In this document: in pieces, positions 13,141 to 35,061 of the stretch
How the letters are laid out: every line of letters starts with the position of its first letter
Numbering within the stretch: position 1 is the stretch's first letter
NCBI GenBank assembly: GCA_024663395.1
Contig: JANFAH010000034.1
Location: 310,001-374,000, forward strand
Length of the DNA: 64,000 nt
Reading direction: 5' to 3'
Origin: Pisolithus tinctorius
Taxonomy: Eukaryota; Basidiomycota; Agaricomycetes; Boletales; Pisolithaceae
The notes under the pieces: model-generated
Told to the model about the DNA's origin: nothing
The model's input: only the letters and a program-made list of their open reading frames with translations
The model's database searches: none
Program-made: the position numbers and the translations under genes

Positions 13141-13373
13141 CACTTCAGGTAACCAATTTTCATAAGCATTTAGGCTGAAGTTTTTCTACAAATCATCCAA
13201 GCTAAAAGCCACTCAGACCAGGTCATCCCAGGGACATCTGGCCATGTCCCAGGGCTATTTGCAGTGTGCAGGAGCTGGGATGTCCCATGATCCCAGCCCT
13301 TTGGTAATATATTTTGGGCTGTCCCATGGCTGCCTTAGGTGTCAGGGGTCCTCAACTGCAAAAGTGCAGCTCA
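13141..13373 (+). repeat. KDZ-1 left terminal inverted repeat
   Basis: 233 bp, beginning CACTTCAGGTAACCAATTTT. It is the reverse complement of 34829-35061 except for a G/A near 13284 and an A/G near 13355. It contains no CG. It also holds one copy of the GGGATGTCCC motif found in the adjacent array. Confidence 0.95.
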
Positions 13374-13820
13374 CACCCACATTGGAATGTCAGCTTTCAA
13401 TCACAAACACATTGCTGTTATGATCATCATCCAGACAATGAGCATACCTATCAAACTGGGGGGATGGATGAAAACATTACCCTCCCAAAAAACACTTATT
13501 ATACATATTAAGTGATATATGAAGACTACTGGGCAATGAGTGTGTTTGTGTGATGCCATCTGCAGAATTGTACAATGTGGATGAAGGTGAACCTGTCAAT
13601 TACTAAAGGCTAATGGATTCAGAATCCCCCCAATAGTACTGTAAGTTTGTGTTTGTTACAACAGTCACTCCTCACTAAGATCAGTACTGTTGTTTCCAAC
13701 TTACAGTTGAGGTACATACATACATAGTATCAAAATGATGCTCTTGTGGGGGATGAGCATGTGAGTGCCCCACTGGCATAGGATGCTATATGATCTGATT
13801 GGCATGGGGCCCCATGCCCA
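13374..13820. other. KDZ-1 spacer between terminal repeat and left array
   Basis: No gene, repeat or motif was recognised. The sequence is AT-richer than the array and nearly free of CG. Confidence 0.5.
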
Positions 13821-13825
13821 GGACA

Positions 13826-15185
13826 GTGGGATGCCCCTTGATAGCTTTGGAGGCCACTGTGGGACATCCCACCCCCCCCCCTTCCATAGGCCAGTGGGAT
13901 GTCCCATGATAGCTTCAGAGGCTATGGTGGGACATCCCATCCCCCTTCCATAGGCCATTGGGATGTCCCATGGTAGCTTTGGAAGCTACTGTGGGACATC
14001 CCACCCCCCTTCCAGAGGTCAGTGGGATGTCCCATGATAGCTTCAGAGGCTACTATGGGACATCCCATCCCTCTTCCATAGGCCAATGGGATGTCCCATG
14101 GTAGCTTTGGAAGCTACTGTGGGATGTCCCACCCCCCCTTCCAGAGGTCAGTGGGATGTCCCATGATAGCTTCAGAGGCTACTGTGGGACATCCCATCCC
14201 TCTTCCATAGGCCAATGGGATGTCCCATGGTAGCTTTGGAAGCTACTGTGGGATGTCCCACCCCCCCTTCCAGAGGTCAGTGGGATGTCCCATGATAGCT
14301 TCAGAGGCTACTGTGGGACATCCCATCCCCCTTCCATAGGTCAGTGGGATGTCCCATGATAGCTTCAGAGGCTATGGTGGGACATCCCATCCCCCTTCCA
14401 TAGGCCATTGGGATGTCCCATGGTAGCTTTGGAAGCTACTGTGGGACATCCCACCCCCCCCTTCCAGAGGTCAGTGGGATGTCCCATGATAGCTTCAGAG
14501 GCTACTGTGGGACATCCCATCCCCCTTCCATAGGCCAATGGGATGTCCCATGGTAGCTTTGGAAGCTACTGTGGGATGTCCCACCCCCCCTTCCAGAGGC
14601 CAGTGGGATGTCCCATGATAGCTCCAGAGGCTACTGTGGGACATCCCACCCCTCCTTCCATAGGTCAATGGGATGTCCCATGGTAGCTTTGGAAGCTACT
14701 GTGGGACATCCCACCCCCCCTTCCAGAGGCCAGTGTGATGTCCCATGATAGCTTCAGAGGCTACTGTGGGACATCCCACCCCCCCTTCCATAGGCCAATG
14801 GGATGTCCCATGGTAGCTTTGGAAGCTACTGTGGGACATCCCATCCCCCCTTCCAGAGGTCAATGGGATGTCCCATGATAGCTTCAGAGGCTACTGTGGG
14901 ACATCCCATCCCCCTTTCATAGGCCATTGGGATGTCCCATGGTAGCTTTGGAAGCTACTGTGGGACATCCCATCCCCCCTTTCATAGGCCAATGGGATGC
15001 CCCATGATAGCTTTGGAAGCTACTGTGGGACATCCCATCCCCCCTTCCAGAGGTCAATGGGATGTCCCATGATAGCTTTGGAAGCTACTGTGGGATGTTC
15101 CACCCCCCCCCCTTCCAGTGGCCAGTGGGATGTCCAATGATAGCTTCAGAGGCTACTGTGGGACATCCCACCCCCTTTCTTGAGG
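13826..15185 (+). repeat. KDZ-1 left subterminal array of about 65-bp hairpin units
   Basis: About 21 tandem units. Each holds TGGGATGTCCCA, then (A/G)TAGCTTY, a few bases, RAAGCTAC or GAGGCTAC, then TGGGACATCCCA, and a linker of C-run, TTCCATAGG or TTCCAGAGG and CCAATG. The two 12-mers are reverse complements and the GTAGCTT/AAGCTAC parts also pair, so one unit can fold into a hairpin of about 21 bp with two mismatches. The array contains essentially no CG. The array at the other end is its reverse complement. A role as transposase-binding region is inference. Confidence 0.92.
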
Positions 15186-15326
15186 CCAGTAGCATGTTTC
15201 ATCATAGCTTTGGAGGTTACTGGGGGCCATCCCCCCAATTCTGCACACTCCTGGTATATTAAAATATTTCAGATGCCATGGGCACTCATCTAATGAATTT
15301 TTCAGAGACATACAAGACTAGCTTCA

Positions 15327-18300
15327 CTATCTACGTGGTCTTTTACTTGGAGATGATGGGGGATCCATATCCAATACATCTAATTCCCAGTCATCTGCCC
15401 ATGAGAACTCTGTCAATGACATCTCACTGAACTGTTGGTGATATTCATCTGCAAGAGCAAATTCCTCAGCAACACACAGCAAGTCATCATCCCCATCATC
15501 ATTCTCAGATTCCAAGTCCTCCCATCCCACCTCTTCATTTCTGTCCATGTCCATGGTGAGTGGTGCACAATCCATATTCCTCCATTCTTCAACCCTTGCC
15601 TCCCAGCTCTCATCAGCACCTCCTGGAAAGTCCCTCATTTTTTCCTGCCACAAGAGACTCAGACTTGCTAGTGCTGAAGCCCTGTGGTCCAGTTCATATG
15701 CAAGATCTGCACCTGATTTTCATTCAATTATCTTAATACATGCAATGACACAACAGCTCTCTTACCTGCATCCACTCTGCATGTCTCCAGCCGTCTCCAT
15801 TCCTCTGAGTGCCATTCCATCAAGGTTTTTCTTTCATACAGGAGCCTCCTTTCCTCCTCCTCACACCTCTTCAGCTCAAGGAGTGACCTGATCCCCAAGC
15901 GCACCCTTTCATCAGCTAACCAAGCTGGTGGCAATCCCACAGAATCATCCTCCAGACCAATATCCTGCCAGATATCATCATCCACATCTAGTTTGAACAA
16001 GCCATCCCTTTGGATCAGTATAGGTGCTATGGCCCCTTGAGGGGCTTTCCCCTGGCGGATGAGAGCTACCAACTGCAAACACAAATTATTGTAGGAGGTA
16101 GAAAGCTTGACAATTCCTGGTTCTCGTTGCCGGACAGATCCTTCCACATGGATTTGAAGTTTTTTTTCTTCAAAGCAGTCAACCACAAGAGGCAAATGCT
16201 TGAGAGCACCACTTACCACTAACTGTCTGTCGGTAAGACCGTTCTAGTCTCTCTAATTCAAACTTTCGTTGACACAGACAGTCTCGGATACGCTTCTTGA
16301 TTGCCAATGCATGCATACACAGCTGAATGCTTTGAATTCAATCAACTTATAAATCTAGAAGAGGAAGAACCACCAGCCTGAAGAAAGGAACTATTCTGGA
16401 GCCTGGAAAGCTCTGCAAGCCCATCTATTCCAAGGCTTGCCCTCTGTCTTTGTGAAGCTTGCTTGAAATGTATAATCTTTTTGTGACACTCTGCTAACTG
16501 TATATTTAAATTTGTCATATCAGCCCCTCCTCGGAGAAGACCCTTCTCCAGTTCATCTAGTCTAGCTTCATAAGTTTCCAGTGATTTCTGAGTTGCCATC
16601 ATTTGCATTATAAAATTTTCTGTGGCTTTTGCAGAGTGCCCTTAAATTACTGTCAGCTCACAGCAAGAGGAATCACTTATACAGGAGGCTTACGAGATGC
16701 TGGCTTGGTTTGTACTGAAACCTGAGCCTCCCATTCAGCTTGAAGTGTCTGAATATTGATTCCAGATTTTCTTAGACCCTTTTTTGCAGAAGTCTTTTTT
16801 TCTTGACAGTGGTTCCAGCGCCGCAAAAGCCACTGGCCAACACCAGTAAGACTCTTCATGTCAAGATAGCGCACCTGGGAGTCAATAACAAAGAGGCGTT
16901 GATGATACTGAATAAAATATTAGCCTGCATTTTGTGACACAACTAATTGCATACCCCAGAAACTCGCAGAGATGGTATTAGTGGCTTAATTGAACTCCAA
17001 AATCGCTCACAACCCTCTCCATCAGAAAGCCCAAACCCTTCTCGTTTCCGAGGGTGATAGATGAGCTGGCAAGCCCATTGATGACCAAAGGCATGAAAGA
17101 CTGATATAGCAAAAGAAATTCGGGGTAGAAATGGCCCAAGGTAGCCCCACTTTCTGCAGCTCTGTTCAAGCTGACAGCCTATGTCATATAACAGCCCAAT
17201 GTGAAAATCATCAGGGAGGTGACTGAATAATGATTTGATGAGGGCAAGTGCATAGTGTTGCTTCTCCCCTGCTGAAGTCATGTTGGCAAGGTGAATAACA
17301 CGATCATGACGACAGAGTAGGGCCATAACTCCAGTATCTGAAAAGAATTGGGTACTTGCCTATACCACCATCAGAATATTGCAGACAGGTTAAATGACTA
17401 AGCTCACTTTCTGACGTCTCTCATCAGCTGCAGTGAAGGATTCATTACAACCCTTGAGGACTGATGGTGGTATCCTCATACCCTGCTCAAACCTATCCTC
17501 ATCTCCACAATTCTTCTTAGAAGACTGACCACTCCTCTTTTGCATTGATGCCTTTGTCCTTCTCAAACCTTCAACCTCACATTCCATAGTATCAATATCT
17601 TCTTGTGACAGAAAAACTGAACCTGTAGGGTTTACTGGGTCATCCTGTTGACTTCTTCTACGTTTCTGGGTAAAGCAAGCATCAATGCAAACAATTGCAT
17701 CAGGATCAGAGGAGCTAGGACCCAAGACTATTTAGTAACATAGGATTATGTATATGCACCAAGAAACATACCTATTATTATTTTTCCAGTTGCGACTACC
17801 AAAGCATAATGGACAACGCTTTCGTAGGTATTCTGAAGGCCATGTCCTTGAGCTTGAGACATCTGGAGGGTGGTGAGAGGATGATGGAACTGCAGGGAGG
17901 ATGTCTGCTGGTGGGGTTGCAGCACTTTCCAAGTGTTGTTGAACATATTCATCAACTGAGATTTCCAGGATGCAATACCAGTGGTATGCATTACTAAACC
18001 TTCGACGTATACCTTCCTGTAAGTATCATTAGCAAACATCATTAATAGATATGGATGGAAATAGTTAAAGGCATGCATTGACTTGATAAACACAACACAA
18101 GATCAGATCTACAGACATGTGCACATTCATACAACCACAGTGCAATCATTCATTAGACACAAACAACAAAGTCCCAATAGGTTAGACATACACAAAACCG
18201 TAGTCTCATAATCACAACATAAACGAAAACAGTGGATACAGATAATATAATCAATGGGACAGAATTCAGACACAAACCTTTGTGTCTACCTTGTAGCCCA

Positions 18301-19158
18301 TGCTAGCAAGATGTGCTTCAAGGGACTCGCACCATGCAGAAATGTTTGGGGGCATGCGCATAAAGACCTGCCTGACCAGACTCAGAAGCTGTAAACTGAC
18401 AGCAAGGGTTGGCCCCAGTGGCGCAGATGGAAAGTACCCCATCTGCAGGAGCTGAAGTGCTGCCGGCGCACATGGACAGACGGCGAGATCAACCACTTGC
18501 AAACCTGGCACAAGCCATATGTCTAAGTAGAGAGGAAAACATGCAATAAAATCTTACCATTGAAACTAACACAGAGAACCTTCAATCGTCAAGAGACGCA
18601 ACTACACTCTGGGCGCTCATAGTCAACGCGGTGCCGGAAGTTTCTAGAGAGCCATCGATATGCAAGATAGGGCTCGATAAGTGAGGGGATGGTTTCAGAC
18701 GACCACCGCTGCCACTGTCTCATTTTCTTGTGAGCATTGCAGGACGGCGAGGATGGCGGGGCAAAAAAGTCATCGTGACTGACATGTAGCCCCTCCGTTA
18801 GACAATCCAAATGGGCAGGGGCGAGCTCGTCCTCAGATGGGAGGCAAGCTCCCGTGAGGGGAGGGGAGTTCGTAGCAGAAGCAGTGCGGGGGGCTGAAGT
18901 CCCCTGAGGCGGCTGCGTGAAACTGCGACGCCCAGGCAAAGTGACCAGACGTTCAATGGGAAGGTAAAAATTGGCTGTGCCCAGCGCGCGGCGCGGCGGC
19001 TCAACCTGGTCATGGTCAACAAGTACTGCTTGACCTCCAGGGGAATGCAAGTCGGAGACTGGTACGGGAGGAGGATGACTCCCAGAGGAACGCGAGTTGG
19101 AGGTCACGGGAATCGAGGAACGGTGATTCAAAAACTTCCTTGGGCGATGAAATGACAT
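15327..19158 (-). pseudogene. KDZ-family transposase (CxC type), about ten exons, one in-frame TGA
   Basis: Exons that fit the sequence: 19158-18558, 18522-18278, 18016-17772, 17714-17408, 17359-16955, 16907-16694, 16640 to about 16343, 16322-16217, 16167-15766, 15712-15327, about 1070 codons. The junction between exons 7 and 8 is unresolved. Family signs: paired CxC clusters (PECSCVS and VCPCAPAALQLLQMG), MRMPPNISAWCES, RCPLCFG, then an RNase H-like core with VCIDACFTQKRRR, LCRHDRVIHLANMTSAGEKQ, LLYDIGCQLEQSCRKWG, FHAFGHQWACQLIYHPRKREG and GLSDGEGCERFWSS, and a coiled-coil C-terminal part. The Asp of CIDACF and YDIGC and the Glu of GEGCERF are the likely metal ligands (inference). A TGA at 18589-18591 interrupts exon 1 where CGA would continue the frame; without it the protein looks complete. 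Length is normal for the family. Confidence 0.88.
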
Positions 19159-19408
19159 CTGGAATGTTGATCAGTTCTCTAGCCAGGGAGAGACGACAAT
19201 CCAGCAACACCAAGTTGGAGGACTGTGACCAGAACACCTAATTCTAGTCCACTGGTCGTCAACACCAAGCCACCACGAGCACGTCCGGTTAGCTGGCAGT
19301 GATAGATGAAAGCTGACCTTTTGATACACGATAGGCGAGAACAATGACACAGACGAGGGGTGAAATGGATGCAGATTTTACAGTAACTACAAGTACATAG
19401 CCATGTAA
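19159..19408 (-). other. Intergenic region upstream of the KDZ transposase gene
   Basis: This 250-bp gap separates the 3' end of the next minus-strand gene from the KDZ start and should hold the KDZ promoter and the neighbour's terminator. No clear TATA box was recognised. Confidence 0.4.
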
Positions 19409-22345
19409 TTATGCTTGTGGGGGACGGGGGGGAAGTGCGGACGACGATGCAGATGATAATGCGGATGATGATGGGATTAAGTGGTTATCGCCCAAGCCGT
19501 AAATACTGCGAGGATTTTTCGGAATAAGACGGAGGACGATAGGCAAACGACCAAAGTTATCGAAGAATGACTGCACGTAAAATAACGCAAGCCGTTTTTC
19601 CACTGCCCAAACACGCGCCGGTGAGGCTGACGATGGAAGTGAGGTTCCCAAATCCGGCGGAAACCCTGGCCACGAAGCGAGCAGCATCCAGAACCTCTCG
19701 ACATATTCCAGCTTCATTTGGGGTTCTAGTGAGACCAGACCTTGATCCTTAACCGGGAAGGGTTTGGCGAACATGGTAAGCTCCGAATCTCCCGGGAAGA
19801 TCTGCATAACAATTTAGTAAATGGATTCTTTTGAGGTGCAAGGCAAAAACTTACCTGACGGACTTGGTCCAGCCGCTCAGATTCCACATTCGACCAGAGG
19901 GCGGGCACCAGCAGACGGTCCAAGGCAACCAGCTCGAAGCGGAAATTATGCTCGTACAGGTCCCAGAGAATCTTGCCCTTTGTTGCTGAGTCGATGGTAG
20001 CGAGGTCTGCGAGACCAATTGTAATGTCGCGGAACTGCACATGACTCGGTACATCATGCTGAACCTTCACGAACTCCGGACCAAAGATATCAGCAGCTTC
20101 ATGTATTTGGTTCCCAGAAAAACTGATCGAAATGTGGTCGGGAATCGTGTTAAGATAATCGCGCCACAAACGGGGAATGACGGGGGACGCATCCGAAGCA
20201 GCGAGTCGCATGATCCAACCTGCTCGGGCCACCAACCAATTCCGGAGGTACCTCTGCCTCCGCTCCGAGGACTCGCCTCTCATAAATAGCGCGGGGTGAG
20301 GGAAAAAATACACGATTTTGGGCACACTGGCACGAATTCTCTTGGGGTCCTTGTTGACGTCAGTAAGCGCAGTGTGCCACAAGTAAATGTGAGCGGGGAA
20401 GGCAGGATCATCAAAATCCTGCAGCAAGTCGATGTTCGGAGCGGTGGAAGTCTTGGCCTTCTTCGAACCTGCAGAATTATCTGAGCAGATAGTTGTAAGC
20501 GTAAAGATCTCGATCAGTAACGAAACACCCACAAGGACCGCTGCGATGTTTAGCCCTATCCGTTCTGACAACTCCCGAGGCGGAGCCGGGCATGCTGGAA
20601 CTCACGGTATTCAAGGCCATTGAGCCGGAGGTTGTGGGAGTCGACACCGCGGGACTTGGTTCTGGCCAGGGCGCCGCAAATTGCTCAAGGCCCACTACTG
20701 GAGCTTCGCGGGTGTGGACATGCATAGGATCGCCAGGGTAATACCACCTAGTGTTCCACTTGAGCATTTGGCCGACCTCGAATTCATCTGGGGTAGTGAT
20801 AATGCCTTCCGGGCGTGTAATGTCGACCTCGCGATGTATCTTCATATCCTTTGGCACTAACTCCGGCTTCCAGACTAGCCATACGGGGATGTGTGCTTCA
20901 AAAAGTCGCTCGCAGACATCAGGATCTGTGGTAAATGCACCCATCCAACGCTGTTTTGCATTAAAAAATGGGCCAGAAGGGGGGGTAATTTTTATCTCAA
21001 GGGAGTCTACCATAGCGTAAATATCCAGACAAAGACATTGGAAGAGCGCGACTAGGACCACCGTATCACGGAAGGTGAATGGGAGTTGCTATGGAATTGT
21101 CAACTATTGAAATATCAGACAATGAGATATCATACCTTCAGACGCATGAGAGACCTTCGACATTGCCTAATCCATATGTGCACCCGGAGAGGTCCCTCGT
21201 CGTCAGGGTTCTTTGGTGGCCAGTTCTTCGCCCGTTCTTCTAGTCGTTTATACAAGATCTCTAGATGCTTCCACTTGTCTGGATGAACCCTACCAACCCT
21301 GAACGCCGATCCTCTCTCCAAGGCGAAGTCTTCCGGCACATTCCTGATGTTCCACCACATCCAAGACCACGTCAGGTCGTCCCGATAGACTGCATGTCGA
21401 GGGATACATCCAGCCCACATATAACGCTCGGCATATAGTTGAGGCCACTGGAAACAGTCGATGTGGCCGAATCGGCCATCGCGGCAGAGTGTGATTGTCT
21501 TCCCCTCGAAGAGAAACGGTTTGGGAACGAAGTCGGCATTAGGAGAGGTGATCCAGTGGTCGTTATATTTCGCGAGAATGTGTGCGTCGAAGGCACCATA
21601 ATTCCCTGAAAGAGAATGCATTGGTTATGAGCCACATTAGGTTAAATAATAGAGCGCACCATCGCCCGGTTGGGTTGCTGCTATGACCTGTTGAGCGCGT
21701 TCTTGAGGCATATCGATCCTATAAATGAAATAAGAACTGAAATATGTAGCGTCTTAGTACGGATTCCACCACAGGGTCAATAAAAACGTACCCAGGAGAT
21801 AAGAGGCATTCGAAGGGGGGAGGAGTTAAATAAAGCAATACGGCTATAGTAGAATTGTTGAAGCGCGCCCTGGCACCGAGTCGGAGTACCAGCCCACGAC
21901 ATGGAGTCACATCATCCAACGTTCCTCCAACAACACTAGCGTTGCTGATATCTGTGAGACCGTCAAGGGGGAGATAAATGAGAAAAAAAAGTGGATCACG
22001 CACCTACATGGTATATAGAACCTTGCACCCGGTGAAGATTTCATGCACAGATGCCGGGCACACAGTCTTCAATGCCCCGAGTTGCGCTATGCAAGGTAGC
22101 GCCTCCACGAAATGGAGTCTCGTCCGCGCGACTGGTACCACGAGCATGCCAAGTTTACTGAGATAGGCACCAAACCTATCTCAGCGCTCGAAGGGCACCA
22201 AACCCTTCGAATCCTGGCGGAGGAACGCGCCAAATGTTCCTCTCCGCGACATGAATTGATAAAAAGAAAGAGGAATAAAGAAGAAACTTACCTGAGGCAA
22301 TAGCGTGAAGGCGGTCGTGGATTAAGACGCGTGGATCGTTTGAAG
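19409..22345 (-). CDS. Cargo gene: multi-exon protein of unknown function
   Basis: Seven exons fit with GT-AG introns: about 22345-22292, 21951-21792, 21718-21660, 21605-21136, 21088-20533, 20468-19855, 19801-19409, roughly 770 codons without a stop. The first exon ends in VLIHDRLHAIAS; I could not find its ATG. Marked segments: NYGAFDAHILAKYNDHWI, LYAERYMWAGCIPRHAVYRD, LRVHIWIRQCRRSLMRL, LPFTFRDTVVLVALFQ, RWMGAFTTDPDVCERLFEA, RRQRYLRNWLVARAGWI and FYVQSFFDNFGRLP. The wording RWMGAFTTD...LFEAHIPVW is one I associate with multicopy uncharacterised proteins of agaricomycetes. I know of no assigned function and see no catalytic motif, signal peptide or membrane span. The 54-62-bp introns and CpG-rich exons suggest a functional or recently functional gene. 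The exon 5/6 junction (GTGGGT donor) is the least certain; intron 1 is long (340 bp) because it contains a dispersed repeat. Confidence 0.75.
22060..22255 (-). repeat. Dispersed hairpin-rich repeat inside intron 1, inverted copy
   Basis: On the minus strand it contains TTTGGTGCCCTTCGAG and TTTGGTGCCTATCTC, then CGCGGACGAGACTCCAT and GGAGGCGCTAC with TATAGCGCAACTC-type sequence. The same words in the same order occur on the plus strand at 22728-22915. The two copies therefore form a spaced inverted repeat around the first exon of the cargo gene. Confidence 0.65.
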
Positions 22346-22727
22346 GGCTTGCAAAAGAAGTGCGACAAGTGCAGTGAGCACGTGATCATTACCGCATTAA
22401 GTCAGAGCTGACTTAGCACGAGAAATTTGCTGGCGGTGCGCGCGGACTATTTGGTGGTGGCAGTGCCATGGGCAACGTTGCGATGCCGCCGGTATGCAGT
22501 CAGGTTACGCATGCGGGGCGGGCTAATTGGTGCCTTAACCTAATATATAACATATGTTGTAATGCCCCTGCGTTCAATTCAAACCAGAGTCCCGGAGGAA
22601 ATACCGACAAATTAATTGTCATAGGTGTGTACTTAGTAACCAAACATACACAATGTTGACATGTTCGCACACTTGTTTCCCTTCTCCACTTTCCACTCTC
22701 CACTCTCCACTCTCGTCGTTAATCCTT
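22346..22727. other. Probable promoter region of the 19409-22345 gene
   Basis: No ORF of substance. This gap lies between the putative first exon and the plus-strand copy of the dispersed repeat. It includes an AT-rich stretch near 22540-22560 (AATATATAACATATG). Whether a plus-strand transcript also starts here is unknown. Confidence 0.35.
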
Positions 22728-22915
22728 TGCCAGGGGAACGCTTGGTGCGTCCCCTACCAAGCGTCAGGGGCTTGGTGCCCTTGACGGCTCTCGAAGGCTC
22801 CAAGCCTTCGAGAGTCGTCTTGGTATGGATTGGCTGTCGGTCGCGCGGACGAGACTCCATCTCATGGAGGCGCTACTTCGTATAGCGCAACTCAGGGCGT
22901 TGAAGACTGCCAGCT
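22728..22915 (+). repeat. Dispersed hairpin-rich repeat, plus copy
   Basis: It reads CCAGGGGAACGCTTGGTGCG, TCCCCTACCAAGCG, GGGGCTTGGTGCCCTTG, then CTCGAAGGCTCCAAGCCTTC, GAGAG and CTTGGTATGGAT. The parts are near-palindromic (AAGGCTCCAAGCCTT). An almost identical block of about 100 bp occurs at 23708-23806, shorter versions at 26826-26875 and 28205-28305, and an inverted version at 22060-22255. Confidence 0.7.
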
Positions 22916-22969
22916 TTCCTTGGCTACCCTGGAGTCCATCTTTTACTTCCCAAAGGAGACTCAGCTGTT

Positions 22970-23900
22970 CACGTTACCCGCTGGTGAGTTCGAGGCTTGC
23001 GTCTCCCCTAGATGTTAATCAAGTTTCTCTTCGCTTTCTCAAACTTCCTGATCAACGCTACATTCTCTCCGTCACCTGTTAAGGCCAACATTTCTCCTTG
23101 GCTGCCTCCATCTCTGCCTTCTTCTGAGACAAGACTTTGTTCACTTTGCCCGCTGGTGAGTTCAAGGTTTGCGTCTCCCTTCCTTCGCTGATCTCCAATC
23201 GTCTTTGTATAAGGACGCTAATCGGGTTTCTCTTGCTCACTTTCTTACTTTCCTGGTTAAGGCAGTGTTCTCTCCGTTATCTATCAAGGCCGATGGTTTT
23301 CCGTGGCTACCCCCAGCTCCGCCTTGTCCATCTGAGACAAGACTCCGTTCACTTTTCCCGCTGGTGAGTTTGAGGCTTGCGTCTCCCCCTTCCTTCGCTG
23401 ATCTCTGATCGTCTTTGTATAGGGACGCTAATCGGGTTTCTCTTGCTCGCTTTCTTACTTTCCTGGTTAACGCAGCGTTCTCTCCGTTATCTATTAAGGC
23501 CGATGGTTTGCCGTGGCTACCCCCAGTTCCATCTTCTCCTTCCGATACTAGAGTCTTTTCAATTTGCCCGCCGGTGAGTTTGAGGCTTGCATCTCCCTTC
23601 CTTCGCTGATCTCCAACCGCCTTTGTGTGGAGACGCTAATCAGGTTTATCTTGTTCGCTTTCTTACTTTCATGGTCAACGGTACGTTCTCTTTGACATCT
23701 ATTACACCAGGGGAACGTTTGGTGCGTCCCCTACCAAGGGCCAGGGGCTTGGTGCCCTTCGCAGCTCTCAAAGGCTTGGAGCCTTCGAAAGTCATCTTGG
23801 TATGGATATACCCTAAACTCTACCTTTTCGTTTCCCGAGGATATTCCATTCATTTTACAAGCTGGTGAGTTTGAGGCTCGCTTGTTTCCTCAGTTCCTGA
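22970..23900 (+). repeat. CpG-containing tandem repeat, about 210-bp unit, with splice-like motifs
   Basis: The phrase GCTGGTGAGTTYGAGGCTTGC recurs near 22979, 23150, 23360, 23571 and 23862. Between the middle copies the whole 210-bp unit is conserved, including CTTCCTTCGCTGATCTC, CGTCTTTGTATARGGACGC, TAATCGGGTTTCTCTTGCTC and CGATGGTTTKCCGTGGCTAC. Each unit carries a strong donor-like G|GTGAGT and an acceptor-like TATAG, so it looks like a repeated exon-intron segment, but no continuous protein could be assembled. Confidence 0.7.
23708..23806 (+). repeat. Dispersed hairpin-rich repeat, third copy
   Basis: Nearly identical to the block starting at 22730: CCAGGGGAACGTTTGGTGCG, GGGGCTTGGTGCCCTTCG, AAAGGCTTGGAGCCTTCGAA, CTTGGTATGGAT. 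It is embedded in the last unit of the 210-bp tandem repeat. Confidence 0.7.
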
Positions 23901-24755: not shown

Positions 24756-25361
24756 ACATACCTGTTTTGTATAAAGCTTTGCTTTTTTATTTTTTATTTG
24801 GCTCAAGTGTAACCAACAACACGACTACTAACGGATTTTCTACCTGGTGCAGGTAAGTGGAGATATCGCAAATACAAAGGTTTCAAGATCGGGACCCTTT
24901 CATCATGTACGTGTTGTTACTGACCTGCATCCATTCTCGCCCCTACTGTTTGGCGCAGTGTCACACACCAAAGGTGTTGTGGACATGGTTACAGCTGACT
25001 CTGCCTAACTCGTTGACGAGTTGCGCACAATGCCCAAGCATGCAGATGAAGACTAAAGGCCTCATGCGTAGAAAGACTGTTGGACGTGAACAGTCATCCT
25101 TCGCACAAGAACGAGTCGTCAGTGCTAAAGAGAAAAGAGGAAGCGAGTTAAGCGCGCATTAAAGGTTTTTAGCACCCGTGTATGGCATTCCGGTTTTCAT
25201 CGTATCTCCACCATTTCCAAAGATATCGACTCCATTCCCATGCTCGCTTAAAGTGCTCAGCCCCACGATTCTTCCTTCCAAATTTGGAGAGGATCCTCGC
25301 ACCCTACGTGTTTCTACAGCACTCCATCCATCAGATGCTCATTTCGCTAAGTCCATCAATC

Positions 25362-25841
25362 ATGGCCACCTCTTCGTCAGTCATCTCGCTTGTCTTGTTT
25401 GCCAGAGACAATGGCTACGTATATCTGCCAGGCATTCCCACCAGCTTCCGTCCTGAAGCCCCCTGGTTCATCCCATCATTGTCAGCCCCGTCCCGTCCCA
25501 TGCAGCTTGGTCAGCATGTTCTCCTTGTCAGTATGACTTCCAGAAGGATGTTCTTTGGTCGCCTCAGGTCTGTCACTCGGTTAGAAAGGTCTTATGTGGT
25601 TGTTTCAGTCTCCCCTCTTGATGAAGCATATGGATCGTTCCTCCCTGCTCCCTGCACCGTCTTTGTTCCAATCTTGTCCATCATTCTTCCCGCATTGCGA
25701 CAGCTGCAGCATAGTCTACTGTTCTCCAGCCTCCCTGATTGCATCCATGATGGGTATGACATGCATCTTGCCTTCTTACTGCAAGATCCAGCAGAAGATG
25801 TCCCCCCTTCTCCTCCTCCTCCATCAGAACCCTGTTCATGA
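25362..25841 (+). CDS. Possible single-exon gene, unknown function
   Basis: An open frame starting MATSSSVISLVLFARDNGY at 25362 runs 160 codons, with a Pro-rich end (VPPSPPPPSEPCS). The same frame extends upstream to an ATG at 25182, but that stretch has no convincing character. The protein has hydrophobic strands (CTVFVPILSIILPALRQL) that could be one membrane helix. No family is recognised. It lies in CpG-rich sequence within KDZ-1, with no stop and no obvious intron. Confidence 0.35.
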   Translation: MATSSSVISLVLFARDNGYVYLPGIPTSFRPEAPWFIPSLSAPSRPMQLGQHVLLVSMTSRRMFFGRLRSVTRLERSYVVVSVSPLDEAYGSFLPAPCTVFVPILSIILPALRQLQHSLLFSSLPDCIHDGYDMHLAFLLQDPAEDVPPSPPPPSEPCS

Positions 25842-26067
25842 AGTTTTTGTTAACTTCGCTGAGAGGATGAAAAGGGTGGGAGACGCGATCGCGTATGCTC
25901 TCATTGCCCCACAGACCCCCAACGCCCTAGCCCCCTTTGACGCCTGCTCATGCCCTTCAATTCTGGAATTAATACTTCCCTGTCTGGAAACACCGTCCAT
26001 CTGTCATGCCATCTTTGGATCTAGAGATGTCTCCGCCGAGATCTAACTTGCATCGCCACCCCCTAAT

Positions 26068-26675
26068 GTGATATCAGTGTGCTTACTCAGTTTCTGATTC
26101 TATTTGACTCATTTTGTGATATTTTGACTATCCTTGACTTGTTCATTGCCAGTACTTACCAATCCTCTTTGCTTGCTTACTTTTCATTTCTCGCTTACTC
26201 ATCATGGTTACTCAGTCCTTACTCATTACTTACCAAGTGTTTGTGCCTTGTTTGTCATAAGCTGTGCTCCCCCCTCAGTATATAAACCCCCATGTACTTA
26301 GCTACCGAGAATCAATCAGAATCAATTCAGAAGCAGTCCAGCAGTCAGTCCAGTGCCTATCTCATCGTCGACAGTTGAGGCTCCACGAAGGGGTCTACCT
26401 GTCATCATTCGTATACTTGGTAGTTGAGGCTCATTCGGAAGAGTCTATCTGCCTCCATCATTCATCTGAAGCTTCCTCTTAGTCAGCAGTCTTAGTCATC
26501 CCTCCACTCCTGTGTAACTCGTCAACGACTTGCGCCAGGAGCTCATTTTATTGAAGTCCATTATTCCAAGAAGTCCTTTCGGCTGAACACCTTCACTCTG
26601 TTCAGCATCCCCTCCTCAGTCATCACTTATTCATCTTCTCCTGCGTAACTCGTCGTCGACTTGCGCCAGGAGCAC
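26068..26675 (+). mobile_element. Candidate solo LTR or promoter-like block
   Basis: The block begins TGTGATATCAG and has a TATA box (GTATATAAACCCCC near 26278). It then holds a pyrimidine-rich leader with two similar segments, GTAACTCGTCAACGACTTGC near 26513 and GTAACTCGTCGTCGACTTGC near 26645, both followed by GCCAGGAGC. This layout resembles a solo LTR, but I found no second copy and no target-site duplication. Confidence 0.3.
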
Positions 26676-26825
26676 CTCTACTTGAAGTTCCCCCCACATT
26701 TAGGTTTCTGCACTCCAGGTTCCACGGAGGCACACCACCACTCGCTTTACATTTGTCTTTTGTGTTGGTTTTGGTTGGTTTTCACCACCTTTCCACACTT
26801 TGACTCACAGCGGTTGTCCACAAGA

Positions 26826-27435: not shown

Positions 27436-27678
27436 TATTCCTTATGGTTCGTTCCACCTGGTACTTATCACGATACGGCATGACACCAATCTTCTTTTCT
27501 GATATTTTCCTTTTGTTCCACTCACTACTCATGTAATAACTGCAAGTGTCATTATTCCATCGCAACAAGCCGCCATTTTACCGAATAACTCCATGGGTTT
27601 TTTTATATCAGGTAAGGCATGGCTTTACTTAAATACCTCATCTGACCGCTTTTCCCCTCCTCCCCCATCGTTCTTGAC

Positions 27679-30600
27679 ATGCCTCACGTGCCGAAAAGTG
27701 TTGACCAAGTCGCGGACAACTCTACGGATTTGCACACCCAGGTTCTTCGAAACCGCAAAATCCCCACCACCAAGATGGCTCCTCCACCAGAGGTAAGTTA
27801 TCTTGTCACCGTCGATCCCATCTGACCCCTGCCTTCACAGATCAAAAAAGACAAGCCCAAGCCCTGGCACGTGGTGCAACCACCTGAAGGATGGGAAGAA
27901 CATATGTTCGGTCTCCGTGACAGGAGGAGATCACTCACTCCTAGTGTTTCTGTGTCCTCCCAAAATTCTACTACCCCGATCTTGCAGGAAGACCAGGTCG
28001 AGGGCGCTCCGATGGAGGAGGATACTGGTGAGGCTGAGGCTGAGGCTGAGGCTGAGGAGGTTGAGGTCAACGTTCCTGCTGACGAGGGCAGTCAACGTCC
28101 TGATGATGGGGCTAGTCAACTTCCAGACGATGAAGGTTTGTTTTTTTAAAAATATTTTTCTCGTTCTCTCACAGTTCTGTAGATGTTGCGTTGTTATATC
28201 CTTGACTCCAGGGTTTGGTGCCCCCCCCTTCTCTCATCTGACTGTGGGTTCGGTGCCCAATGGTCTAAAGCTAGGCGCTTTGGATCCTCATGAGAGTCGC
28301 CAAGTGTCCTGTGTCATTTTCACTTCTTTTCTAGACACTTTGTTATCCTTTGATGTGTCTTTTGTCACACTGCAATGCATTCTCTTCCGATATTGACATG
28401 TTCATAGTAGATCAGGATGATTCTGAATCATCACTTCCTCCATCTTCGCCACCAGCTGAAGACTCCAGTTCCGACGCCGAGGATGAGTTTCCCCCACGTT
28501 GTCCTGGTCGCCGTGTGGAACACAAACCTAAAAGCAAGGGCAAAAGTAGGGCTATGGATGTTGACGACAGTGATATAGTGAGTCAGGATGATCATGAACA
28601 CGCCTGGAACACGAAATTTAGGAAGACTGGGAACTTGTCCCATGCCGCTCTTGATGAGATACGTGACTTCGCGACCGAAGTCAAGGCAAAAGCAGAAAAA
28701 CTTGGATGTCGACACGGCAAGTCTCCTCGTGACATCCTTGTCGCTGCTGGGCTCAGTGTCAAACCATCTCACACGAAGCTCAACGAGGCCAACCTCTTCT
28801 GCTCGTGGTATTGGGCCACCCAACCGAAACCTGATGGCGGTATGCATGCCCTTGTCACATACTCTTTTATAACATTCTTCCCAGCCGACCGAAACATGGT
28901 CAACAATATCATTACGGCGGAGTACAATCAACTCATGAAAGATATCCCCAAAGACAACACCGCGGCAAGAAAGGAGAAGTTGAAGGCCGTTTATGAATGG
29001 AGCGAGAGCTCCTCAGCAGTGCCCGCTAACAAATCAGTCAAGTCCATCGCAGTCAGAGTCCACAACGTGAAGACGCAGTTCTCCGGATTGGTAAGTGGTT
29101 GTAAGTGGGTGGGTGGGTGGCAGATCTTACTGTCGAGCAGGCTGAAGCGTGGTCGACTCTTGAAGACATCGAAATTGCTGGAGTTGTGATGTATGTTGGA
29201 CAAGACCCTGCAGGACGCCAGACCTCTGGCATATTTGGTGGTTCCGATATCATACGAAAGTACATCAATGATCGTGCCATTGATGTTCGGGGACTTATGG
29301 ACAAGTACACCGCAATATTTAAGTAAGTGATGTTACACATATCTTACTCGGACTCATTGCAATTAGGTGTCTCAGGGATGGTAATGGTACTGAGGCTGGG
29401 TTATTAAGGACGAGTGCTTCTGCCAGTTCAGCTCCAGCATTGGAGTTGCATTGTCGAATGAAGGAGATACCAAGAGATCGCAACCGCCGGGTATTTGGAT
29501 CTATGATGAAGGAGAAGTTGATAACGGCGCTCCAAGATCTACGCAGTACGTATTTCTGGTATTCCATATATTCTCTTCTAAGTGTCTTCCCATAAGCAAC
29601 CCGTGGGGTCAAAGTTGGTGATCCCCAGAAAATCATTTGGCAGCAGCTTCTTGAGTTCGTTAGGAGGAACTCTCTCATCATAATCAACTGGCCGCTTGGG
29701 GTGCCTCCACCAGGCCCTGGTTTTGAGTACAAGAAACTCAAAGCTGATGCTCTCCGCCAACTTGTGGTACCTTATCTGTGGAGAAAGCTAGGCTCGATGT
29801 ACGATGGACAATCTGATGACGATGATGACGAGAAAAATGATCGTCTGGATGGTGTGCCAGAGGTCGAAATCAAACCCTGGAATGAAGGTATTGCGTACAT
29901 TTTTTGTCTAACTCATCACTGACCGTTTTTGCAGATGTCATCAGCATAAGGGATGTACACCCATTAAAGGGAGAGATCGCGCTGGTCAAGGCTCCTGATG
30001 GCACGGTTTTGCGCAAGGTGTCTGACAATCCTGAGTGGCAGAAGTCCCGTGAAGAAGAGGATCCAGGTATGGCGGCACATCATGCACAGAGTGGAATCCC
30101 ATTTCCATCGGGCAAGCGGCCTCGTGTGGAGGTGATGGATAATGACACAGTTCCTTGTGAGGTGAGTCAATCCACTCAACCTCTGGTGTCCACTAATGCT
30201 CCCCAAGGCTTCACGCTCTGACCGCCAAATGCCCCTGCATGACGAAGGCAGGGATGCATGCCCCATTGCTGGTGACCACGGTGTAGTGATTTACCCTGCT
30301 GCATTTTGGTTGAAACTAACAGGCGACATGCACAGGATGCACTTTGTGACCCACCAGCACACACAAGCCGCGAGAACACTCGAGAGTCCAGTCGATCTGA
30401 GCGCCCCTTGCCGGCTCGGCGCTATGGGGTGAGGTCCGGACATACCAGTTGATTAAAAGACTAATGGAGGACTGCACAGGATCTGCATCGTGATGCTGTC
30501 CCAAGCCGTTCGCACCCGCGGGACCCTGGCCCTTCTCAGCAGTTTCCACCATCTCGGCATTATGAGGTGAGTAACCCAGGCATTCTGCTTCTTGAAGGAG

Positions 30601-30942
30601 ACCAATAGGATGTCCCACAGGACCCTCGTTATGACCGCGCCAACTATCATGTTCCTGGCCCCTCCGATATTCCCTACAATGTTCGTGGCTTGATCCTTCA
30701 TTGTCACATTTTGTTTAGCTTCTCTATAGGTATTACCGCCTGCCCGCCGCAGTTCGGGGCGTTTCCCTCTGTCCTGTCAGACGTATCGCATACCATCTCG
30801 CCCTGACCATCATGTTTACCGTGATGCTCCATATATCTCTGACTACTACCCCCCAGCCCAGCCTACAGCACAGCAATGGGTTGACAGAGGTAGTGCTGCA
30901 CAGTATGAGGATGAATTTCCTGAGGATTACTTAGATTATTAG
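27679..30942 (+). CDS. Cargo gene: multi-exon protein of unknown function with acidic N-terminal part
   Basis: Introns that fit: after 27792, after 28134, and near 28841, 29094, 29323, 29546 and 29887, with several more short ones toward the 3' end. The frame ends YEDEFPEDYLDY and TAG at 30942. The N-terminal part is acidic and repetitive (GEAEAEAEAEEVEV; SDAEDEFPPRCPGRR; a basic KPKSKGKSR patch). The core has LSHAALDEIRDFATEVKAKA, GKSPRDILVAAGLSV, LFCSWYWATQPKP, ITAEYNQLMKDIPKD, VRVHNVKTQFSGL, VVMYVGQDPAGRQTSGIFGG and MKEIPRDRNRRVFGSMM. The tail is rich in Arg, Pro, Asp and Tyr (HPRDPGPSQQFPPSRHYE). The charged, disordered ends suggest a nuclear, nucleic-acid or chromatin-related protein, but I do not recognise the family. 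No stop interrupts the exons read. Confidence 0.65.
28205..28305 (+). repeat. Dispersed hairpin repeat within an intron
   Basis: GGGTTTGGTGCCCCCC, GGGTTCGGTGCCCAATG and CTAGGCGCTTTGGATCC follow the pattern of the 22728 and 23708 blocks and lie in the second intron of the 27679-30942 gene. This family therefore occurs in introns of both main cargo genes. Confidence 0.5.
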
Positions 30943-32130
30943 TCTCCTCAGTATTTTCTTTAGAAATACATGTTTGTTTTTCCGTGATAGGGTGAGCAGT
31001 GAGTGAATCAAATCTCTCAGTTCTCCGTCATTTTGAATGCAAGAGCATTTGTCTGCTTGACTGTTATTTTGTTACCTCCTGTGGCCACACTGCCATATTG
31101 CTGCTCACTTGATCTACCAATGAATTTTCTACTGATTGACATTCTACAGGGAAGATGCATCTACTCAAAATACTGTATGCTTGTTTGAAGAGTTTGGGCT
31201 GCAGAGAGTTAGGTCAAAGGACATTTGAGGTGAAGCTTAGAGGCCACACCTACAGATAAAGGAGCCTCCAGCAATGAGGAGGGGATATGGTGACATTAAG
31301 CAAGTGTTGATGTGGTGATCACTGACTGACAACTCTCCTAGTGTCACTGTGTCCAATGGCCAGGGGCTCTGGTGAGTTCTGCTGCCTGGTCTCCTGTGTA
31401 CCTTATCTATATTTGATTACTGTGATCAAGTGATTGTTTTTCCCTGGTGAGTTGAGGGAACTCAATGGAATTCAAATGGAATTGAAATGATTATCTCAAA
31501 ATAATGGGTAAATAGCCTGAATTTTGAGAGGACTAAAAACACTCAAAAGTCAATTTCCTTCAAGTTTTGACAGATAGGGTTTTTCCACATGGTGAGGGGG
31601 GTGGCAAGGTTGGAAAGCAAGGATTGAAAGTGGTGTTGAGGCAAGGGTAGCAGTACCTCAGATTAAAGGGACTTGGGCAACATCTCTTGCTTACTAATCA
31701 GGTGTTGTTATCATCATCAGGATACTACAGTTCTATGTTACATGCAAGCAGTGTAGAGCTGCAGAGGTTGACTTCTGGATTTATTTTGGTCTTGTCTGGG
31801 TTCTCTCATTGGCTTTTCCCTATAAACATTGTTGTTCAATGCTTTTTCTAAGAGCCTATTTTTGTGTTGAGAATTAATCTACCTGCATTGCTACTAAAAC
31901 AGGTCTATCTTTTATCAGACCCATCATGTTGTTATCATTTGCAGCTGCACAATTTGCCCCCATTTAATCTGCTACATTGGCCCTTCACTGTGCTCTGTGA
32001 GTTAGTATAAAAATTAGATAACATTACCTGTGCAATATGTCAATACAGCCCTGCATGGTGGATCTGGTTGACTTGAAGCTGCCACAAAATTGATTTGAGA
32101 GCATTTTGGTGTTCTGACATATAGTACATG
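30943..32130. other. KDZ-1 non-coding stretch before the right array
   Basis: No gene was recognised. CG becomes rare from about 31000, in contrast to the gene-bearing core. The stretch may include the 3' untranslated region of the preceding gene. Confidence 0.5.
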
Positions 32131-34035
32131 GACATCCTACTGGCCTCTATGGAGAGGGGTGGAATGTCCAACTGGCCTTCAGAGGGGGGAGTGGGATGTC
32201 CCACAGTAGCTTCCAAAGCTACCATGGGACATCCCATTGGCCTATGGAAGGGGGGGTGGGACATCCCACAGTATCCTCCAAAGCTATCATGGGACATCCC
32301 ACTGGCCTCCAGAGAGGGGGGTGAGATGTCCCACAGTAGCCTCCAAAGCTATCATGGGACATCCCACTGTCTATAGAAAGGGGGTTGGGATGTCCCATAG
32401 TGGCCTCCAAAGCTAGCATGGGACATCCCACTGGCCTCCAGAGAGGAGGGTGGGATGTCCCACAGTAGCCACTGAAGCTATCATGGGACATCCCACTGGC
32501 ATCTGGAAGGGGGATGGGATGTCCCACAGTAGCCTCTGAAGCTATCATGGGACATCCCACTGGCATCTGGAAGGGGGGTGGGATGTCCCACAGTAGCCTC
32601 TGAAGCTATCATGGGACATCCCACCAGCCTATGGAAGGGGGGGTGGGATGTCCCACAGTAGCCTCCAAAGCTATCATGGGACATCCCACTGTCTATGGAA
32701 AGGGGGTTGGGATGTCCCATAGTGGCCTCCAAAGCTAGCATGGGACATCCCACTGGCCTCCAGAGAGGAGGGTGGGATGTCCCACAGTAGTCTCTGAAGC
32801 TATCAAGGGACATCCCACTGACCTCTGGAAAGGGGGGTTGGATGTCCCACAGTAGCCTCCAAAGCTATCATGGAACATCCCACTGTCCCCTGGAATGGGG
32901 GTTGGGATGTTTCACAGTAGCATCAGAAGCTATCATGGGACATCCCACTGGCCTCCAGAGAGGGGGGTGGGATGTCCCACAGTAGCCTCTGAAGCTATCA
33001 TGGGACATCCCATTGTCCTATGGAAAGGGGGCTGGGATGTCCCACAGTAGCTTCTGAAGCTATCATGGGACATCCCATTGTCCTATGGAAAGGGGGCTGG
33101 GATGTCCCACAGTAGCTTCTGAAGCTATCATGGGACATCCCACTGGTCTCCAGAGCAAGGGGTGGGATGTCCCACAGTAGCCTCCAAAGCTATCATGGGA
33201 CATCCCACTGGCCTCCAGAGAGGAGGGTGGGATGTCCCACAGTAGTCTCTGAAGCTATCAAGGGACATCCCACTGACCTCTGGAAAGGGGGGTTGGATGT
33301 CCCACAGTAGCCTCCAAAGCTATCATGGGACATCCCACTTGCCTCCAGAGAAGGGGGTGGCATGTCCCATGGTAGCATCTGATGCTCTCATGGGACATCT
33401 CACTGACCTCCATAGAGGGGGTTGGGATGTCCCAAAGTAGCCTCCAAAGCTATCATGGGGGATCCCACTGGCTTCCAGAGAGGAGGATGGGATGTCCCAT
33501 CGTAGCCTCCAAAGCTATCATGGGACATCCCACTGGCCTCCAGAGAGGGGAGTGGGATGTCCCACAGTAGCCTCTGAAGCTATCATGGGACATCCCATTG
33601 TCCTATGGAAAAGGGGCTGGGATGTCCCACAGTAGCTTCTGAAGCTATCATGGGACATCCCACTGGCCTCCAGAGAGGGGGGTGGGATGTCCCACAGTAG
33701 CCTCTGAAGCTATCATGGGATATCCCATTGTCCTATGGAAAGGGGGCTGGGATGTCCCACAGTAGCTTCTGAAGCTATCATGGGACATCCCACTGGTCTC
33801 CAGAGCAGGGGGTGGGATGTCCCACAATAGCCTCCAAAGCTATCATGGGACATCCCACTGTCTATAGAAAGGGGGCTGGGATGTCCCACAGTAGCCTCTG
33901 AAGCTATCATGGGACATCCCACTGGCCTCCAGAGAGGGGGGTGGGATGTCCCACAGTAGCCTCCAAAGCTATCATGGGACCTCCCACTGGCCTCCAAAAA
34001 TGGGTGGTGGGATGTCCCATCATTGCCTCTTGGTT
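32130..34035 (-). repeat. KDZ-1 right subterminal array of hairpin units
   Basis: About 28 units of roughly 65 bp, reverse complements of the left-array unit: GGGATGTCCCACAGTAGCCTC, CAAAGCTATCATGGGACATC, then a CCACTGGCCTCCAGAGAGGG-type linker. Larger blocks recur (the segment near 32380-32480 is repeated near 32690-32790), so the array grew by segmental duplication. It is longer than the left array and has virtually no CG. Confidence 0.92.
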
Positions 34036-34069
34036 GTTCTACATAGATGACCTTGATGAACATGTGACT

Positions 34070-34137
34070 AAAGGTGGGATTGAACCAGCAGTCTCCTGGA
34101 GTTGACCTTGTGGTTTAATCACTGAGCTATATGGTTT
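34070..34137 (-). other. tRNA-like sequence with pol III A and B boxes
   Basis: On the minus strand TAGCTCAGTGATT (34129-34117) matches the A box and GGTTCAATCCC (34086-34076) matches the B box, spaced as in a tRNA without a long variable arm. The middle contains CTCCAGG, a possible Trp-type anticodon loop, but the flanking bases do not form good D and anticodon stems. It is probably a decayed tRNA pseudogene or the head of a tRNA-derived SINE. Confidence 0.4.
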
Positions 34138-34828
34138 GAGTACTAATGTCAGTTGCTTGGGGGTTAGATCAGAACTTTGGGAATAATTATCCATGAAGAG
34201 TAATACACAGAATGCACCATCTCCAACAGACTTCAGTGGTCTTTAGCAACACAAGTCCACCCTTCCTTTGAGAATCAACAACGTTCAGTCTTCTGCCCAT
34301 CCTGGCTGGATTGGTATTTGAAGCACATGGTGGTCCACTGGAGGGCCTTACAGCCCAGGGTCATAATGGGACATTGGGCACCACAGCAATCAGATTACAT
34401 AACCCCTTTGGACAGTGGGGTTCTCACATGCTTGTGCCCCACAATAGTGTCATGTATTGTGCTACAATCTATTCCTTGGCTTGGAAGGTCTTCCACTCAT
34501 CCTCATTGAATGCATTTAGTATGATCTTATTAATGTGTACTCCTTCTATAAGCAATGGAACTTACTCATGGGACAGTGCTGAATCCATTAAAATTTATCA
34601 CAATGATGCAAGGCTCACTTCCAGAAGTATTGTATGATTCTGGAGATGACACCTCACAATCACACTGATTTCCCACTTCAAATTTGTGCATAATAAGTGT
34701 ACCAAATGGTTTTGGAAAGTCAGTGGCTGCCACATACATAGGCCCCTACTTTGCCAGGTATTCTCATCATCCTGGATAATTGTGACTGCTTTGGTTTCTT
34801 GGTCAGAAGTGGGATTTCAGTGTGAATA
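34138..34828. other. KDZ-1 spacer between right array and terminal repeat
   Basis: No gene or repeat was recognised. It is the counterpart of 13374-13820 but is longer and not obviously its inverted copy. Confidence 0.45.
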
Positions 34829-35061
34829 TGAGCTGCACTTTTGCAGCTGAGGACCCCTGACACCTAAGGCAGCCATGGGACAGCCCAAAATATATTACCA
34901 AAGGGCTGGGATTATGGGACATCCCAGCTCCTGCACACTGCAAATAGCCCTGGGACATGGCCAGATGTCCCTGGGATGACCTGGTCTGAGTGGCTTTTAG
35001 CTTGGATGATTTGTAGAAAAACTTCAGCCTAAATGCTTATGAAAATTGGTTACCTGAAGTG
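34829..35061 (-). repeat. KDZ-1 right terminal inverted repeat
   Basis: Reverse complement of 13141-13373 with two mismatches, ending GGTTACCTGAAGTG at 35061, followed by the target copy TTCCAGG at 35062-35068. Confidence 0.95.

Follow-up and report, generated by a model that had tools for sequence, protein, structure and literature searches.

A probable three-gene lineage of KDZ transposons with inverted subterminal motif arrays in Pisolithus tinctorius

INTRODUCTION

CACTA/EnSpm transposons have CACT- termini, arrays of subterminal motifs, and a second gene beside the transposase. Here, we describe an element that shares these three traits with them but carries a KDZ transposase and has a target-site duplication (TSD) of 7-8 bp. 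It is an insertion of ~22 kb that spans positions 13141-35061 of a 64,000-nucleotide stretch of Pisolithus tinctorius DNA (hereafter, the window; contig C34, positions 310001-374000), and it contains, in addition to the transposase gene, two genes that we refer to as gene 2 and gene 3. C34 and the other C-numbers used below denote contigs of the same P. tinctorius assembly.

Among described members of the KDZ superfamily, Kyakuja and Zisupton offer the closest comparisons. According to Kojima 2025 (PMC12730594), TET-bearing Kyakuja elements of Agaricomycetes have 5'-CA..TG-3' termini and a 7-bp TSD, the two characterized Laccaria Kyakuja families encode TET/JBP and lack terminal inverted repeats (TIRs), and Zisupton elements have TIRs and 8-bp TSDs. 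Set against these descriptions, the family of the C34 element is like Kyakuja in its KDZ transposase and its 5'-CA..TG-3' termini and agrees with it in part in its TSD, which is 7 bp long at 7 of 13 sites. Unlike the two Laccaria families, it has TIRs of 248 bp (2.3 kb in a related element on C28), subterminal arrays, and the gene pair 2 and 3, but no TET. It is like Zisupton, compared by these traits only, in its KDZ transposase and TIRs, and it agrees in part in its TSD, which is 8 bp long at 6 of 13 sites and may be either 7 or 8 bp.

A further likeness, to the VANDAL/VANC systems of Arabidopsis Mutator-like elements, concerns only how such systems work. There, several genes stand beside the transposase, and VANC targets consist of short motifs in family-specific tandem repeats (PMC5735166). 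The VANDAL transposase belongs to another superfamily, however, and the C34 element has no detectable VANC domain; any demethylation by its proteins is hypothetical.

RESULTS

The same three genes recur in order in three KDZ families

The C34 element (family 1) was compared with elements on C28 and C52 (family 2) and C17 (family 3) by tblastn of its exon open reading frames (ORFs). This analysis revealed that the KDZ gene, gene 2, and gene 3 occur in identical order and on identical strands at C28, C52 and, more distantly, C17. More specifically, 9 of 9 KDZ ORFs, 4 of 5 gene 2 ORFs, and all gene 3 ORFs aligned at C28; at C52, which was partly fetched, 7 of 9 KDZ ORFs aligned and the other two lay outside the stretch; and at C17, 8 of 9 KDZ ORFs aligned together with three ORFs each of genes 2 and 3. 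Against family 2, the KDZ catalytic exon shows 92-93% amino acid identity, the exons of gene 2 show 54-65%, and those of gene 3 show 42-82%; the corresponding values for family 3 were 74%, 28-55%, and 29-38%. The C28 element is complete (C28:297605-319933), with a 7-bp TSD and 2318-bp TIRs, the tip of which is 76% identical to that of the C34 element.

The linkage extends across the genome. It was counted with the 150 listed of 160 KDZ matches (150 of 463 candidates scored) and, after merging, with 101 gene 2 loci (from 123 matches) and 59 gene 3 loci (from 86 matches). Gene 2 was found within 12 kb of 75 of the 150 listed KDZ matches (3.9 expected), and in all 75 cases it lies upstream on the same strand, at a median distance of 3.7 kb. 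In addition, 46 of the 47 gene 2-gene 3 pairs are divergently oriented. The 101 gene 2 loci comprise 75 near a listed KDZ match, 10 with gene 3 only, and 16 with neither, KDZ being counted among the matches listed.

Between families 1 and 2, the ratio of nonsynonymous to synonymous differences per site (pN/pS) was 0.31 for gene 2 (669 codons), 0.25 for gene 3 (387 codons), and 0.24 for KDZ (373 codons), as measured in exon windows chosen by hand; the segments from genes 2 and 3 had pS values of 0.63-0.78, i.e., near or at saturation, where Nei-Gojobori estimates of synonymous divergence (dS) are rough. These ratios indicate that genes 2 and 3 are under purifying selection. Given the shared order in three families, the presence of gene 2 at 75 of 150 listed KDZ matches, and the purifying selection, genes 2 and 3 look like constituent genes of a KDZ lineage, and the original prediction, made from this stretch of DNA alone, that they are passengers carried as cargo was not borne out. 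The features of the C34 element are collected in Table 1.

Table 1. Features of the C34 element and its immediate flanks (window coordinates)
Feature	Position	Strand	Description
Left TSD, TTCCAGG	13134..13140		Junction reading and empty-site paralogs
Left TIR	13141..13388	+	248 bp, 97% identical to right TIR; first bases CACTTCAG
Left subterminal array	13820..15233	+	64-65-bp unit, 21.8 copies
KDZ transposase gene	15330..19170	-	About nine exons, boundaries approximate
KDZ domain exons	16948-17359 and 17393-17731	-	PF18758
CxC1 cysteine cluster	18269-18553	-	PF18802, N-terminal to the KDZ domain
In-frame stop, first KDZ exon	18589..18591	-	No counterpart in 5 of 5 aligned copies
Gene 2	19409..21711	-	Five exons: 21660-21711, 21136-21605, 20533-21088, 19855-20480, 19409-19801; 698 aa, open
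Duplicated intergenic block, copy 1	22725..22852	+	Internal hairpin CTCTCGAAGGCT/AGCCTTCGAGAG
Duplicated intergenic block, copy 2	23702..23808	+	88% identical to copy 1
Later nested insertion	24958..26812		About 1.86 kb; termini apparently TGT..ACA; does not belong to the element
Gene 3	27775..30940	+	Exons 27775-27792, 27841-28135, 28408-28839, 28885-29090, 29141-29322, 29367-29545, 29597-29887, 29935-30161, and provisional 3' exons
Right subterminal array	32167..34019	-	65-bp unit, 28.6 copies; inverted relative to left array
Right TIR	34814..35061	-	Last bases CTGAAGTG
Right TSD, TTCCAGG	35062..35068		Junction reading and empty-site paralogs

Subterminal arrays are built on a 12-mer

Each array unit contains about two copies of the quasi-palindromic 12-mer TGGGATGTCCCA; these generally face opposite ways, at a spacing of mostly 31-33 bp. 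The window contains 84 exact copies (0.05 expected), every one of them within the element; each TIR of the C34 copy holds one, and the 17-kb core lacks the motif. In seven copies of family 1 the count is 65-133 each, again with motif-free cores, and the family 2 element on C28 contains 79. The family 3 element on C17 has no TGGGATGTCCCA; it has 47 copies of another, quasi-palindromic 13-mer, TGGAGAATCCCCA, none of which lies in its own core, and TGGAGAATCCCCA was found in neither the C34 nor the C28 element. A short tandem-repeated motif that differs between families (TGGGATGTCCCA for the first two, TGGAGAATCCCCA for the third) is a trait shared with VANDAL/VANC targets, and a protein may bind it.

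The centre of the 12-mer, between GGGA and TCCC, reads TG in 44 cases, CA in 42, TA in 1, CC in 1, and CG in 0. We rejected the TG/CA ratio as proof that the motif decayed from a CpG palindrome, since the TG and CA forms are a single motif in two orientations and their ratio therefore proves nothing; descent from a deaminated CpG-centred palindrome is a possibility.

CpG-free ends enclose a CpG-rich core

CpG dinucleotides are nearly absent from the ends of the C34 copy (1 vs 160 expected in the outer 2.5 kb on the left; 2 vs 238 expected in the outer 4 kb on the right). Its ratio of observed to expected CpG (o/e) is 0.00-0.04 at the ends, rises across the KDZ gene from 0.04 to 0.8, stays mostly at 0.5-1.1 from gene 2 across the intergenic region to gene 3, and then drops to 0. 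The profile of the C28 element is similar, as is that of the C17 element, with a lower plateau (0.3-0.6). Across seven family 1 copies, CpG o/e ranged over 0.00-0.09 within 2.5 kb of the left end and 0.00-0.06 within 4 kb of the right end, except that the innermost right 500-bp window reached 0.46-0.49 in three copies with shorter right arrays. In the rest of the window, CpG o/e is 0.0-0.2 over much of the length and 1.0-1.3 in the 4-9 kb stretch, which we guess to be a host gene.

Among the changes that distinguish the cores of the seven copies, 400 of 498 are CpG transitions (two core alignments were used, the C26 and C10b copies each being absent from one). CpG sites underwent transition at a rate of 0.048 per site vs 0.0008 for other C to T changes, a 63-fold difference, and this bias amounts at least to methylation-type decay. 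The rates in the four contexts (ACG, 0.063; CCG, 0.051; GCG, 0.042; TCG, 0.035) are similar, and on this basis we rejected repeat-induced point mutation (RIP) with a preferred trinucleotide; the decay is thus CpG-wide, with no strong context. A CpG-rich and partly non-coding core is combined with CpG-free ends in all three families, from which it would seem that the core escapes methylation in copies that transpose.

Gene 2 and TET/JBP at KDZ loci

A Tet_JBP search (150 of 186 candidates scored; one of the 150 rows was below the cut-off and was set aside) gave no match inside the element among the matches listed. Of the 150 listed KDZ matches, 13 have a Tet_JBP match within 12 kb. One of these 13 also has gene 2, and there the TET gene is on the opposite strand, 8.8 kb away; the TET neighbouring the KDZ at C43 is likewise on the opposite strand. 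None of the 101 gene 2 loci has a listed Tet_JBP match within 12 kb, and since 3.9 would be expected by chance, this exclusion is weak evidence when taken alone. In the 17 kb read at a single TET-bearing KDZ locus, on C50, we found no inverted ends and no CpG-free shell; CpG o/e there is 0.4-1.0, and the KDZ is 33% identical over 94 residues.

A tree of 24 catalytic cores of this genome (20 chosen by hand and four read earlier; 104 columns, P. tinctorius sequences only) united the gene 2-bearing KDZ in one clade (support, 92), together with two KDZ that lack gene 2, and placed the TET-bearing KDZ apart from it, in two groups. In the C34 element, the transposase was identified by PF18758 (157.8 bits, E = 4e-46, profile 69-201; 34.7 bits, E = 2e-8, profile 2-67; cut-off, 26.6) and by CxC1, PF18802 (36.8 bits, E = 4.6e-9; cut-off, 26.9), and the stop in its first exon is a CpG-type change. 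A second, decayed KDZ core with three in-frame TGA codons lies about 11.6 kb downstream of the element (window 46703-47392, minus strand) in CpG-depleted DNA, with no gene 2 match among those listed within 12 kb.

Structure and relatives of genes 2 and 3

The divergent pair encloses an intergenic region of 6 kb, nested insertion included. Gene 3 of the C34 copy is open across the exons tested and has 610 codons to the last certain exon; its provisional model has about 690 aa, and the nearest annotated relative has 858. A protein search retrieved 47 relatives of gene 2, from Pisolithus species and, at 23-30% identity, from Coniophora, Trametes, Paxillus, Obba, Lentinus, Meripilus, Pluteus, Phlebia, and Armillaria, and 95 relatives of gene 3 (7991 candidates scored), from Pisolithus, Scleroderma, and Paxillus. 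In five cases, a gene 2 and a gene 3 relative have near-consecutive locus tags and come from contigs that are equally long: two in P. albus and one each in P. orientalis, P. marmoratus, and Pisolithus sp. B1.

We also considered whether gene 2 is a diverged TET-like dioxygenase and rejected this, as its predicted model, in which 258 of 723 residues have a confidence score (pLDDT) below 50, is mostly helical with few strands and no apparent double-stranded beta-helix, and the element has no Tet_JBP match among those listed. Gene 3, whose model is poor, may still be such an enzyme.

The intergenic region contains a duplicated block of ~100 bp, and each of the 28 full-length matches of this block has a listed match of gene 2 or of gene 3 at a distance of 1.7-9.1 kb. 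Its BLAST pieces are 76-83% identical in family 2, whereas the coding pieces of genes 2 and 3 are 64-69% identical. Rfam and tRNA scans of the window gave no matches.

Borders, insertion site, and nested insertion

The TIR arms are complementary at 97% over 248 bp, and the genome search gave 233 bp at 99%. The element is inserted in a copia-like retrotransposon, relatives of which were sought with the left flank (best 40 of 145 candidates scored; five loci fetched). Four of these five paralogs (L035, L037, L038, and L039) represent the empty site, holding both flanks with an overlap of exactly 7 bp (in L037, the right flank aligned over 50 bases only); in L036, the flanks are contiguous and both alignments end 4-5 bases before the TSD. 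Junctions and empty-site paralogs together thus reveal a complete element with its TSD, a trait of the KDZ superfamily. A gag-like copia frame on the minus strand reaches the junction from each side, the flanks having been read apart; on the left, it meets a stop at the seventh codon, so the frame that removal would restore was already damaged.

The interval listed as a nested insertion is contiguous without the insert in 6 of 6 other whole copies, and a 90% identical sequence occurs elsewhere in the C10b copy (C10:1075837), inside gene 3. TGT..ACA termini are given for PlavakaA in PMC12730594. The ORFs of this interval, including one of 222 aa at 25173-25838, were rejected as genes of the element since they belong to the nested insertion.

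The original prediction described a complete KDZ transposon with 233-bp inverted ends, the TSD TTCCAGG, two multi-exon genes of no recognizable function, and no TET/JBP. The KDZ identity and the exact borders proved correct, as did the mobility and, among the matches listed, the lack of TET/JBP; we also confirmed the inverted ends with their 7-bp duplication and the two genes, which have open frames of 698 and 610 codons and no Pfam match. The element is complete in structure, although its transposase is not, given the in-frame stop. Likewise, the gag frame said to be restored on removal does meet the junction from both sides but is broken on the left, and within the exact borders not everything moved as one unit, since the nested insertion came later.

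Other copies of the family

A search with the left end (best 40 of 68 candidates scored) uncovered 30 matches at 93-100% over nearly the whole probe, one partial match, and nine at 68-74%. As the check proposed with the original prediction required, further copies with the same ends and a KDZ gene inside exist in the assembly. Junctions were read in 17 copies, seven of them whole (including the C34 element) and ten by short reads. Thirteen independent sites had both junctions read, and each has a TSD of 7 or 8 bp: 7 bp at seven sites (C34, C2, C26, C22 at 486 kb, C15, C1, and C27 at 480 kb) and 8 bp at six (C131, C10, C47, C27 at 563 kb, C22 at 790 kb, and C61). TSD length thus varies within one family. 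Both 5'-CA..TG-3' termini were found in 15 of the 17 copies, the exceptions being C61, with one terminal base changed, and C30, with a damaged right end.

Four pairs of contigs (C131/C23, C26/C130, C22/C30, and C22/C145) share the TSD or flank of the same insertion and hence most simply represent two haplotypes kept in places by the assembly. A comparison of the C131 copy with the C23 copy showed 77 differences over 16657 positions, 59 of these differences being CpG transitions. Two copies are oversized (C1:496228-539868 and C22:790407-823028, with 43.6 and 32.6 kb between the ends), presumably due to nested insertions.

DISCUSSION

We consider it likely that the C34 element belongs to a lineage of KDZ transposons with three constituent genes, i.e., the KDZ transposase gene and, upstream of it, the divergent pair of genes 2 and 3, and we infer that this pair serves the element rather than the host. 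Several observations weigh against this, beyond the hand-chosen windows and rough dS noted above. Gene 2 is missing from the 12-kb surroundings of half of the listed KDZ matches (75 of 150), and other KDZ elements thus appear able to do without it. Between the C34 and C28 elements, dS is 0.76 for KDZ and much higher, about 2 or saturated, for genes 2 and 3; this gap could reflect CpG mutability or exchange of cores between families instead of simple co-descent. The KDZ gene of the C34 copy is interrupted by a stop, and genes 2 and 3 are each open in 2 of 6 aligned copies (1 of 5 when the C34 copy is not counted). In addition, the cores of most copies decay rapidly by CpG transition, and any protection must therefore fail after insertion in many of them. 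Finally, neither gene matched Pfam at E <= 10 (HMMER filters drop most weak matches), single relatives of both gave chance-level Pfam rows only, structural searches returned no significant match, and the gene 3 model has a mean pLDDT of only 47.7.

One or more element-encoded proteins may bind the 12-mer arrays and pair the ends, and/or binding to the arrays may set a chromatin state that keeps the core and the divergent promoters free of CpG methylation. A role in transposition is a real possibility, if short of an even chance, and one in anti-silencing is more doubtful; both can be true.

That genes 2 and 3 are transposition cofactors only, acting in end binding, synapsis, or target choice, with the CpG pattern unrelated to them, is possible, though somewhat less likely than not. 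The dense, inverted subterminal arrays with their regular spacing, the one motif in each TIR of the C34 copy, and the strict orientation and distance of gene 2 relative to KDZ are all consistent with this explanation. The second proteins of CACTA/EnSpm elements would be comparable, as would the Myb/SANT protein of Nuwa elements (PMC12730594). Nothing speaks directly against a cofactor-only role, but it leaves unexplained why CpG is kept in a partly non-coding core and is scarce at the ends in three families.

By analogy with Arabidopsis VANC, genes 2 and 3 might instead form a sequence-specific anti-silencing system that binds the family motif and causes CpG methylation to be lost over the element, which we regard as rather unlikely. 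The tandem motifs do differ between families, as described for VANC targets (PMC5735166), a CpG-rich core adjoins CpG-free ends in a genome under strong CpG mutation pressure, and TET/JBP, a presumed anti-silencing enzyme, is absent near the 101 gene 2 loci among the matches listed. However, the latter exclusion is weakly significant given the chance expectation, no Pfam domain, that of VANC included, was found in either gene, and most copies still lose CpGs after insertion.

A third explanation concerns the ends themselves: CpG-free ends may have been selected, because a methylated CpG would block end recognition, with the core CpG-rich only since active copies are transcribed and unmethylated. 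The depletion at both ends of seven copies is in line with this, its three innermost windows aside, and the TG/CA centre of the 12-mer would be the expected decay product of a methylated CpG-centred palindrome. Yet CpG o/e is also low (0.04-0.55, as far as 18.6 kb) in the greater part of the KDZ gene, a region other than an end, and we hold this explanation, too, to be rather unlikely. That the genes are captured host passengers is very improbable: neither has a transposon-type domain and gene capture does occur in some DNA transposons, but the same set, order, and strands recur in three families with near-saturated synonymous divergence and at 75 of 150 listed KDZ matches, and the 101 gene 2 loci, 26 of which have no listed KDZ within 12 kb (10 of these with gene 3), include no clear separate single-copy host locus.

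Array binding that keeps the core unmethylated would counter silencing by another route than the TET/JBP enzymes that neighbour other KDZ transposases. In its fullest form, this would be a TET-independent, sequence-specific escape from CpG silencing in which two proteins act on palindromic arrays, the ends are purged of CpG, and the core is unmethylated, with TET-bearing and gene 2/3-bearing KDZ elements as alternative solutions in one genome; we put this forward as distinctly unlikely, though coherent. In searches of one open-access library on KDZ and Kyakuja, and in the accessible part of PMC12730594, we found no description of a three-gene KDZ class; subscription literature fell mostly outside this search.

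Mushrooms harbour many KDZ elements, and interest has centred on the TET/JBP genes carried by some of these elements. Our data point to a second, large class of KDZ elements in the same genome, with another conserved gene pair, long TIRs, and dense arrays resembling binding sites. Two fungal protein families without assigned function would thereby gain a biological context, and how TET-less KDZ elements survive under methylation becomes a testable question.

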